A stretch of 64,000 nucleotides of DNA, taken from NCBI RefSeq assembly GCF_004114915.1, contig NZ_CP022220.1:1-64000 (forward strand). The letters run 5' to 3'. The DNA is from Bradyrhizobium guangxiense (GTDB lineage Bacteria; Pseudomonadota; Alphaproteobacteria; Rhizobiales; Xanthobacteraceae). The notes beneath the pieces were generated by a model. It made no database searches. It was not told where the DNA came from and saw only the letters and a list, made by a program, of their open reading frames with translations. Shown here one piece after another: positions 433-4,136 of the stretch. Position 1 is the first letter of the stretch. The number at the start of each line of letters is the position of its first letter. The translations under genes and the position numbers were made by a program.

Positions 433-2463
433 ATGAATATCTCCGTCCACGCCGAAGCCGACATCACGGCAGTCGCGCATAACGATCTCGCCAACGCCGT
501 CCGCTTCCTCGCGGTCGATGCCATCGAGACCGCGCAGTCGGGCCATCCAGGTCTGCCCATGGGTATGGCCGATGTCGCGACCGTGCTGTTCTCGCGCTTC
601 CTGAAATTCGACTCGGCGCATCCCAATTGGCCGGACCGCGACCGCTTCGTTCTGTCGGCGGGCCACGGCTCGATGCTGCTCTATGCGCTGCTGCACCTGA
701 CCGGCGGCGACCTCAGTCTCGATGACATCAAGGCGTTCCGGCAGTGGGGCTCGAAGACGCCGGGCCATCCCGAATACGGCCACACGCCGGGAGTCGAGAC
801 CACGACGGGTCCGCTGGGGCAGGGGATTGCGACCGCGGTCGGCATGGCGCTTGCCGAGCGCATGGCCAATGCGCGGCATGGCGACGGCCTCGTCGATCAC
901 TTCACCTACGTGATCGCGGGCGACGGTTGCCTGATGGAAGGTCTCAGCCAGGAGGCGATCTCGCTCGCGGGTCATCTCGGGCTCGGCCGTTTGATCGTGC
1001 TGTTCGACGACAACGGCATCTCCATCGACGGTCCGACGTCGCTCGCGACATCGGATGATCATCTCGCGCGCTTCGCGGCCTCCGGCTGGTCGGTGCGCCG
1101 TGTCGACGGACACGATCCAGAAGCCGTGGCCCAGGCGATCGCGGAGGAGCGGGAGACCGCCAAGCCGTCGCTGATCGCGTGCCGCACCATCATTGGTTAT
1201 GGGGCGCCTGATCGGCAGGGCACCGAGAAGGCGCATGGTGCGCCACTCGGCACCGAGCAGACCGCGGCGGCGCGCCGCGCGCTCGGTTGGGATTATCAGC
1301 CTTTCGTGGTGCCGATCCCGGTGCTCAAGGCGTGGCGGATGATCGGACAGCGCGGGCAGGTCGAGCGACTCGCCTGGCTCGATCGTTATGAGCGCGCAAC
1401 GCCCGAGCAGCGCGATTTGTTCGTGGAAGGTAGGGCGGTTGCCCTGCCTGCTGCCTATGTGCTCGCCGCGGCGAAGTTGCGCGAGCGCTTCGCATCCGAA
1501 CGGCCGAAGCTGGCGACGCGGCAGGCTTCGCAGCAGGTGCTTGACGGCATCGCCAGCACCATTCCCGGACTGGTCGGCGGCTCGGCGGATCTGACGCATT
1601 CGAACCTGACGCAGGCGAAGGCGCAGACCCCCGTTAAAGCCGGTGCGTTCGCCGGTGGCTACATCCACTACGGTATCCGCGAGCACGGGATGGCTGCAGC
1701 AATGAACGGCCTCGCGCTGCATGGCGGCTTCATTCCCTATGGCGGCACGTTCCTCGCCTTCTCCGACTACAGCCGTCCCGCGATCCGGCTCGCAGCGTTG
1801 ATGCGGCTGCGGGGTATCCACGTGATGACGCACGACTCCATCGGGCTCGGTGAGGACGGCCCGACGCATCAGCCGGTCGAACACCTTGCCGCGCTGCGGG
1901 TGATCCCGAACTTGCTGGTGTTCCGTCCCGCCGACGCGGTCGAGACGCTGGAGGCTTGGGACTGCGCACTCGGCTCCGAGCATCGCCCGTCCGTGCTGTG
2001 CCTGTCGCGTCAGGCGCTGCCAACTTTCCGCAGCGATGCCCGCGGCAAGAACCGCGTCGCACGCGGCGCCTATCTCGTCGTCTCGCCCGACGGCGGCCGT
2101 GACGTGACGCTGATCGCGACCGGCTCGGAAGTCTCGATTGCGCTGGAAGCAGCCCGCCTGCTCGCGACCGAGCACATCCGCGCGGCCGTGGTGTCCGCGC
2201 CCTGCTTCGCCTTGTTCGAGGAGCAGCCGGACGATTACCGCGCCACCGTGCTCGGCACGGCGCCGCGCGTCGGCGTCGAGGCAGCGGTTGTCGGCGACTG
2301 GCATCGCTGGATCGGTGCCGACGGTGAGTTCGTCGGCATGCGCAGCTTCGGTGCCTCGGCGCCGGCGCCCGTGCTGTACCGCGAATTCGGCATCACACCG
2401 CAGAGCATCGCAGAAGCGGCCAGGCGCTCGGTCGCACGTCGGAACCAGGGAAGAACAGCATGA
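433..2463 (+). CDS. cbbT: Transketolase, full length (Calvin cycle)
   Basis: A 676-residue transketolase, the usual length for the one-chain enzyme. It is thiamine-diphosphate dependent and moves two-carbon ketol units to regenerate pentose phosphates. The N-terminal half has [11 protein letters not shown] near residue 37, [19 protein letters not shown] near 75, TTGPLGQG near 123, and the ThDP/Mg motif GDGCLMEG near 162 followed by DDN. The C-terminal half has the pyrimidine-domain Glu segment (GIREHGMA). The ATG follows a GAGGAGAG site, and the stop overlaps the next start (ATGA). It is distinct from the split transketolase at 25813-27671. Its place between cbbP and a gap/cbbL gene marks it as the operon's cbbT. 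Confidence 0.96.
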
Positions 2464-4136
2464 GCTTGCGTGTCGCCATCAACGGATTTGGCCGGATCGG
2501 TCGCAACGTGCTGCGTGCGATCGCCGAGCCCCGCCGCAACGACATCGAGGTGGTCGCGATCAACGACCTCGGTCCGGTCGAGACCAATGCGCATCTGCTG
2601 CGCTTCGACTCGGTCCACGGCCGCTTTCCCGGCGAAGTCAAGGTCGACGGCGATACGATCGACGTCGGCGGCGGCCCGATCAAGGTGACCGCGATCAAGG
2701 ACCCGGCGCAGCTGCCGCATCGTGCGCTCGGTGTCGATATCGCCCTGGAATGCACCGGTCTGTTCACCTCGCGTGAGAAAGCCGCCGCACATATCCAGGC
2801 CGGTGCCAAGCGCGTGCTGGTCTCGGCGCCGGCAAGCGAGGTCGATCTCACCGTCGTGTTCGGCGTCAATCATCTCGCCCTGACCGGCGATCACATCGTG
2901 GTCTCCAACGCCTCGTGCTCGACCAACTGCCTCGCGCCGCTCGCTCAGGTGCTGGACGACGCCGTCGGGATCGAGAAGGGGTTCATGACCACGATCCACT
3001 CCTACACCGGCGACCAGCCGACGCTCGATACGTTCCACAAGGACCTCTATCGCGCCCGCGCCGCGGCGCTGAAGGCGCTGCGGCTCGAGGACATGCGGCT
3101 GCCGGTCGCCTATGTGAAGACGTTCCAGGGGCCGGCCACCGGCATCGTGGTCGAGCGCGAGCGGCTCGACAAGTTCGGCCGGCCGCTGCTCGGCGCCACC
3201 ATCAAGCCGAAGCTCGGCCTCTCGGGCCGCAATTACGGCCGCGTGGTCTATGAGGCGCTGAAGGGCGGGCTCGACTTCACCAAGGACGACGAGAACATCA
3301 ACTCGCAGCCCTTCATGCACTGGCGCGACCGCTTCCTCTACTGCATGGAAGGCGTCAACCGCGCGCAGGCGGCGTCGGGCGAGGTGAAGGGCACCTATCT
3401 CAACATCACGGCCGCGACCATGGAGGACATGTACGAGCGTGCGGAGTTCGCCAAGGAGCTCGGCTCGGTCGTGGTCATGATCGACCTCGTGATCGGCTAC
3501 ACCGCGATCCAGTCGATGGCGAAATGGGCGCGCCGCAACGACATGATCCTGCATCTGCACCGCGCCGGTCACTCGACCTATACGCGCCAGAAGAGCCATG
3601 GCGTGTCGTTCCGCGTCATCGCCAAATGGATGCGGCTCGCCGGAGTCGATCACATCCACGCCGGCACGGTCGTCGGCAAGCTCGAGGGCGATCCCAACAC
3701 CACGCGCGGCTATTACGACATCTGCCGCGACGACTTCAACCCGATGAAGCTCGAGCACGGCGTGTTCTTCGACCAGAGCTGGGCGAGCCTGAATAAGCTA
3801 ATGCCAGTGGCTTCCGGCGGCATCCATGCCGGCCAGATGCACCAGCTGCTCGACCTGCTCGGCGAGGACGTCGTGCTGCAGTTCGGCGGCGGGACCATCG
3901 GCCACCCCATGGGTATCCAGGCCGGGGCGACCGCCAACCGGGTGGCGCTGGAAGCGATGATCCTCGCTCGCAACGAGGGACGTGACTACGTTCACGAAGG
4001 CCCAGAGATCCTGGCCAAGGCCGCAGCGACCTGCACGCCGCTGAAGGCCGCGCTGGAGACCTGGAAAGACGTCACTTTCAACTATCAATCCACCGACACG
4101 CCGGACTTCGTGCCGACGGCGCTCGCCGCTGTCTAA
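2460..4136 (+). CDS. In-frame chimera: GAPDH N-terminal part fused to RuBisCO large subunit C-terminal part
   Basis: One open frame of 558 codons made of two unrelated enzymes. Residues 1-203 are glyceraldehyde-3-phosphate dehydrogenase: NAD-binding INGFGRIGR at 7, the catalytic-Cys motif SNASCSTNC near 149, and [10 protein letters not shown] near 181. Residues from ~204 to 558 are form I RuBisCO large subunit from ALRLEDM onward. They retain the residues matching K175/K177 (TIKPK, 247-251), K201/D203/E204 (FTKDDE, 273-278), the loop-6 region and [10 protein letters not shown]. Lost are the GAPDH catalytic-domain remainder and the RuBisCO N-terminal domain, which carries E60 and N123 needed for the active site. 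The junction is at about bases 3069-3074. The ATG overlaps the cbbT stop, and cbbS follows 12 bases later behind AAAGGAG. An annotator may label it cbbL. I infer a deletion (or misassembly) that also removed anything between gap and cbbL. RuBisCO activity is not expected. Confidence 0.93.

Follow-up and report, generated by a model that had tools for sequence, protein, structure and literature searches.

Introduction

In a variant of the Calvin-cycle (cbb) operon found in seven Bradyrhizobium species genomes, gap, which encodes a type I GAPDH, is followed by cbbA and then by cbbL, the gene for the form I RuBisCO large subunit. The N-terminal domain of that subunit contributes two residues, Glu60 and Asn123, to its partner's active site and is also required for dimer contacts. 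Here, we describe a locus in the window, a stretch of 64,000 nucleotides at the start of contig NZ_CP022220.1 of Bradyrhizobium guangxiense (979,173 bases, contig C2 of the two-contig, 8.2 Mb genome GCF_004114915.1), in which gap and cbbL are joined into one open frame, the gap'-'cbbL chimera. The surrounding operon shares the gene order of the intact variant on both flanks, and differs from it in lacking about 1.95 kb between gap and cbbL and in being plasmid-borne. In all likelihood, the chimera is an inherited, inactive remnant of a cbb operon carried by a symbiosis plasmid.

A symbiosis plasmid of this kind is reported to be identical among Type II peanut strains (PMC7324677, PMC13429744), and a list in PMC13429744 names CP022220, CP030049, CP030052, CP030054, CP030056, CP030058 and CP030060 as Type II symbiosis plasmids, six of which hold the stretch described here. 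The word "rubisco" does not occur in the main text of either paper, "cbb" and "Calvin" are absent from the main text of PMC7324677, and "ribulose" is absent from that of PMC13429744.

Results

A GAPDH-RuBisCO chimera in one open frame

An earlier note, made from the letters alone, had proposed an in-frame GAPDH-RuBisCO chimera read through without a stop, and this was confirmed by both the open frame and the Pfam domains. Window positions 2460-4136 (+) form one uninterrupted frame of 558 codons (558 aa), in which GAPDH residues 1-204 are followed in frame by CbbL residues 133-486. Its parts are as follows.

2460..4136, + strand: gap'-'cbbL in-frame chimera, 558 aa (open frame, Pfam; other copies open to the same stop)
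2460..3071, + strand: GAPDH part, residues 1-204, with the NAD-binding domain and the start of the catalytic domain (Pfam, motifs, relatives)
3067..3071, + strand: junction; CGCTG possibly common to both parents, a microhomology of at most 5 bp (comparison with relatives)
3072..4136, + strand: RuBisCO large-subunit part, residues 133-486, with the complete C-terminal barrel and without the N-terminal domain (Pfam, alignment, motifs)

Pfam placed Gp_dh_N (PF00044, positions 2-100 of 101) at chimera residues 4-104, Gp_dh_C (PF02800), truncated to positions 1-48 of 158, at residues 158-204, and a complete RuBisCO_large domain (PF00016, 1-299 of 299) at residues 228-535. The GAPDH part has 85.5-93.4% DNA identity to the operon gap of the seven relatives and keeps the NAD-binding domain and the catalytic Cys and His motifs of a type I enzyme (SNASCSTNC at 149, TIHSYTGDQ at 178). 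It differs from GAPDH of the cbb-operon type in that residues 205-335 are missing; the motifs AIRVPTPNVS and WYDNEWGFS are absent from the chimera, which has no complete C-terminal catalytic domain.

The second half of the chimera resembles a form I CbbL, which we take to be of the red type, IC. By sequence comparison, residues 203-557 align to the ends of solved form I chains (best with 25hn_A residues 134-488, and also with 1bxn_A residues 131-484), and the C-terminal barrel keeps all six of the motifs tested (at chimera residues 249, 269, 367, 400, 450 and 474), to which we assign catalytic roles, with the carbamylated Lys presumably in one of them. What sets the chimera apart from a form I CbbL is the loss of 132 N-terminal residues and the fused GAPDH fragment. 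The motifs GESST (61) and GNVFGF (124) of the chromosomal CbbL, which we take to hold Glu60 and Asn123 (spinach numbering), are not found in the chimera, and the N-terminal domain is gone, so that the loss of this domain and of most of the GAPDH catalytic domain, as first read from the letters, is borne out. As judged from sequence, neither activity very probably survives: GAPDH activity because there is no complete GAPDH catalytic domain, and RuBisCO activity because the N-terminal RuBisCO domain is missing.

Intact operons of relatives and the missing segment

The GAPDH part was used as a DNA query against 265 genomes of the genus, 14 of which gave matches at E <= 1e-200, a strict limit at which more diverged gap-bearing operons would be missed. 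Seven of these carry the junction, and the seven others all have intact gap (335 aa), cbbA (361 aa) and cbbL (486 aa) in that order, with the same flanking genes (cbbR-F-P-T-gap ... cbbL-S-X-E). Some of our genome searches drew on part of a larger group, and their figures are best matches among those listed. Relative to the seven intact operons, 1945-1949 bp are missing in the window and gap codon 204 is joined to cbbL codon 133, with the loss of 131 of the 335 gap codons, the whole of cbbA and 132 cbbL codons. The comparison with related strains that had been called for therefore gave gap-cbbA-cbbL as the ancestral order in 7/7 cases, in agreement with the proposal that the 3' end of gap, the entire cbbA gene and the 5' end of cbbL were lost in frame. 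This combination, an intact homologous order in relatives and missing intervening DNA in the window, is what a pseudogene formed by deletion or recombination would show.

In seven species genomes (L076, L077, L104-L108), the cbb operon includes a gap gene that sits between cbbT and cbbA; neither the chromosome of the window's own genome nor any of the 11 other cbb operons compared shows this order. The neighbors of the chimera in the window are listed below; there is no cbbA between cbbT and cbbS, and cbbS, cbbX and cbbE, which the earlier note had called intact, do have open frames.

1..416, + strand: cbbP (phosphoribulokinase), 3' part, truncated at the contig edge; near position 18 it is one base shorter than in the other plasmids
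433..2463, + strand: cbbT (transketolase), with a 4-base overlap with the chimera start
4149..4556, + strand: cbbS, open frame
4661..5611, + strand: cbbX (RuBisCO activase), open frame
5608..6291, + strand: cbbE (rpe), open frame

In the gene table of plasmid CP030054, which is stated to be incomplete, no coding sequence is given between tkt and cbbS and a locus-tag number is skipped there, as would happen if the annotators had called the chimera a pseudogene.

The same junction in other genomes and plasmids

The 30 bases across the junction were found with zero mismatches in 7/265 Bradyrhizobium species genomes, the window's own genome counted, and in the separately deposited draft of B. zhengyangense WYCCWR 12774 (contig NZ_JAKLUA010000009.1), which is one record with contig C86 of genome G264 and not a second occurrence. 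In addition, six plasmids in PLSDB, all of 979-982 kb and from peanut Bradyrhizobium, cover window positions 1-6300 in one piece at 99.9% identity. The frame was read in G264, G180, G061, G036, G231, G232 and CP030054, and is open to the same stop in all of them; as G061 and CP030054 are the same, the loci read and the window make up seven distinct replicons (six besides the window), and for CP030058 the evidence is 99.9% coverage in one piece and not a letter-by-letter reading. All seven loci read differ from the window by a single shared base at position 2529 (S24 there, P24 in the window). The C at this position (Pro24) is found only in the window, with T (Ser24) in the seven other loci and Ser also in the intact relative G029, and may be either a derived change or a base-call error.

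The identical junction thus recurs in other genomes, in other plasmids and in a separate draft, so the chimera is not a one-off deletion, a possibility that the earlier note had kept in view. It had also held that the same open frame in a close relative would make this an inherited allele, and such frames were found. We propose that the allele has a single origin, which predates the spread of the plasmid or falls within it, and that plasmid and allele pass together from species to species.

Chromosomal cbb genes and the contig end

A protein search of the window's own genome gave three matches: the chimera itself and two chromosomal products, namely a full-length CbbL that matches chimera residues 203-557 at 95% and a GAPDH, encoded in an open frame, that matches residues 1-207 at 75%. 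The search for a second cbbL and gap, suggested as a check at the outset, therefore found both. On the other contig, cbbR, cbbF, cbbT, cbbA, cbbL, cbbX and cbbE are clustered and have open frames, and cbbS was located by a DNA match. We infer that the RuBisCO, aldolase and GAPDH of the cell come from the chromosome, and that CO2 fixation is carried out by the chromosomal operon.

The chromosomal cbbP of this genome carries three indels. They are probably an assembly fault, since three other genomes with the junction have a chromosomal cbbP free of indels. Contig C2 breaks inside cbbP, and its last ~900 bases show many mismatches and 1-base indels relative to CP030054; two of the three chromosomal indels sit at the same places as indels at the C2 end. 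The faults in both places probably stem from mixed reads of the similar chromosomal and plasmid cbbP copies.

The same plasmid also bears an uptake [NiFe]-hydrogenase cluster with a nearby nickel transporter, at about 42,300-56,500 of the window (by CP030054 position). With both sets of genes, the plasmid may in the past have served as a package for CO2 fixation driven by H2.

Probable mosaic ancestry of the operon

Trees were built for the genes on either side of the junction, and placements were compared by the approximately unbiased (AU) test; relatives are given by genome number. For cbbF, cbbP and cbbT together, the plasmid groups with G029 and G212 (support 89/95), then with the chromosomal copy of its own genome (chrG000; 85/88) and with G230 (90/96), and holding it with G030, G156 and G234 costs 203 log-likelihood units (nominal p-AU 6e-76). 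For cbbL, cbbS and cbbX together, the plasmid stands beside G156 and G234 (89/63), with G030 nearest by path, and falls outside the starred ten-row group that holds G029, G212, chrG000 and G230. Here, a forced grouping with G029 and G212 costs 100 units; the cost is 83 when chrG000 is included (nominal p-AU 7e-6) and 81 when G230 is included (nominal p-AU 1e-5).

Tests on single segments agree, more weakly, with the concatenated trees. For the gap segment alone, a grouping of the plasmid with G043 is rejected (p 0.031), as is one with G043 and G096 (p 0.0095), and cbbT alone rejects the plasmid with G030, G156 and G234 (p 3e-4). Downstream, cbbL alone rejects the plasmid with G029 and G212 (p 0.027 with 8 rows, 0.0057 with 20 rows) and with chrG000 added to these (p 0.0062), and cbbX alone rejects it with G029, G212 and chrG000 (p 0.001). 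Sites that separate the lineages shift from 123 versus 38 between cbbF and gap to 21 versus 50 between cbbL and cbbX, a count that is partly circular because the lineages were picked from the very data being counted (with two taxa versus one in the case of gap), and for which the AU tests are the better evidence. On this reading, the upstream and downstream genes group with different Bradyrhizobium lineages, and the point where the two cbb lineages meet would coincide with the missing 1.95 kb or fall inside it. Because the flanks group with different lineages, the join is probably a cross-lineage recombination, or else a deletion in an already mosaic operon; this is less certain than the reading of the chimera as an inactive remnant.

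A simpler origin, which had been favored in the earlier note and overlaps with the inactive-remnant reading, is an internal deletion in a single gap-cbbA-cbbL operon through short microhomology. We regard this as possible but doubtful. The loss itself stands, and all seven gap-bearing relatives show the order that one ~1.95-kb deletion turns into the chimera; the placement of the flanking genes in different lineages, however, is not explained by a deletion within a single-lineage operon, and the microhomology depends on which parent is assumed. At the junction, gap has the sequence GCGGCGCTG. Among 19 relatives, the cbbL counterpart is CCGCTG in 9 and CCGCTC in 7, and 3 have no match to the searched pattern. 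A parent of the CCGCTG type, as in G043, would have 5 bp in common with gap, and about 1% of random gap-cbbL junctions reach at least 5 bp. A parent of the CCGCTC type, as in G029, would have 0 bp in common, and G030 and G234, which are two of the three pattern-unmatched relatives and belong to the nearest lineages downstream, have only 2 bp. The "GCGCTG-like" stretch first suggested as shared therefore holds for gap, which does have GCGCTG, but not for cbbL, where at most CGCTG is common in the forms seen. A microhomology of up to 5 bp, CGCTG (3067-3071), is possible but unproven because it depends on the letters of the parental cbbL at the junction; a firm microhomology claim was dropped on this ground.

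Constraint on the chimera and the question of function

The ratio of nonsynonymous to synonymous substitution rates (dN/dS) between the plasmid and the seven relatives, with that among the relatives themselves in brackets, is 0.067 (0.069) for the GAPDH part, 0.070 (0.040) for the CbbL part and 0.163 (0.092) for cbbS; for cbbX, G096 and G043 were left out of this comparison, as the stretch taken contained a stop. In a wider set of 51 genus sequences (6 of 59 dropped with matches ending at residue 351, G096 and G043 included; duplicates merged, from 54 to 51), the CbbL part ranks first with a dN/dS of 0.072, and ranks 2-4 are taken by the full-length L088, L008 and L011 of neighboring lineages. 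No residue of the CbbL part is private to the plasmid, either against the 50 other rows (0/352) or in a set of 20 rows (0/354). On these two grounds, decay was not accepted as the cause of the raised value. The raised dN/dS may largely be a trait of the lineage, and the break seems too recent for decay to be visible in the CbbL part. The plasmid cbbS has the second most private residues of its set (3). Plasmid CbbX and CbbE (window 4661-6291) have the most private residues of theirs, at 7/316 (rank 1/20) and 8/227 (rank 1/19).

An open frame of this kind could also mean that the protein is retained, co-assembling with the chromosomal CbbL and damping or modulating RuBisCO, or using the GAPDH nucleotide-binding domain as a sensor. 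We consider this very unlikely. In its favor are the frame that is open in every copy read, the six barrel motifs, the CbbL part free of private residues and the open frames of the adjoining cbbS and cbbX. However, there is neither independent origin nor long-term conservation: since near-identical plasmids keep the frame open by descent, its openness does not show that it is used. The GAPDH catalytic domain is also truncated, and the missing N-terminal RuBisCO domain is the one needed for dimer contacts. A specific form of such retention, to which we give scarcely any credence, would have the chimera's barrel pair with chromosomal CbbL, whose N-terminal domain would complete the chimera's active site. 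The chimera could not reciprocate, so that the octamers would be half-active or dominant-negative, and the NAD-binding domain of its GAPDH part might act as a redox sensor. If this were true, the plasmid would tune its host's RuBisCO through the chimera.

Discussion

Taken as an inherited, inactive remnant, the locus would be a crippled second cbb operon, which Type II peanut Bradyrhizobium carry on their ~0.98-Mb symbiosis plasmid. The ancestral order would have been cbbF-cbbP-cbbT-gap-cbbA-cbbL-cbbS-cbbX-cbbE, from which ~1.95 kb was lost, placing gap codon 204 in frame with cbbL codon 133. The predicted product would have the NAD-binding domain of GAPDH but an incomplete catalytic domain, followed by a RuBisCO barrel that lacks the N-terminal domain needed to complete the partner's active site. 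Mosaic and chimera would have arisen together, in one illegitimate crossover between two cbb operons, or else the mosaic came first and a deletion followed. The open frame would keep translation going towards cbbS, cbbX and cbbE, and may have spared the operon polarity.

Several observations weigh against this account. In the upstream tree, no starred set of at most half the rows holds the plasmid, and the branches have 85-90% bootstrap; the downstream placement with G156 and G234, at 89/63, is moderate. In the tree of cbbX alone, the plasmid joins G219 and G156, and the sites of cbbE (17 versus 17) favor no lineage. The groups tested were named after the trees had been seen, and the AU p values are nominal. 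The chromosomal cbb cluster in the deposited assembly, with the indels in cbbP, is not intact. Since the plasmids are near-identical, the seven species represent one event and not seven. Decay is not visible, with the frame open in every copy read and the CbbL part lacking private residues, and the signs of relaxed constraint are mixed, being raised for the CbbL part and cbbS but not for the GAPDH part.

That the chimera is an artefact of assembly, or a mis-join, might be suspected, as the window's contig starts inside cbbP, about 2.4 kb upstream, and has an end rich in mismatches and indels relative to another plasmid. This reading has next to no probability and was rejected, because the exact junction recurs in other genomes and a separately deposited draft and six plasmid records span the stretch in one piece.

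Gene fusion by deletion or recombination is a known kind of event; a GAPDH-RuBisCO case was not found in the literature searched. As judged by listings, the literature on chimeric gene fusions of rubisco and GAPDH gave no such fusion, and that on plasmid cbbL pseudogenes of Bradyrhizobium gave nothing on this plasmid. The chimera is probably a tidy evolutionary case, without new function.

For annotators, the chimera is not to be counted as a second RuBisCO. PMC11397080 reports no horizontal transfer of the cbb operon in Hyphomicrobiales, and a mosaic cbb operon that is near-identical in seven Bradyrhizobium species genomes bears on that statement. As an inherited remnant, the locus would offer a clean example of a plasmid copy of a core carbon-fixation operon that was broken by recombination or deletion, and that has moved across species with its frame still open.

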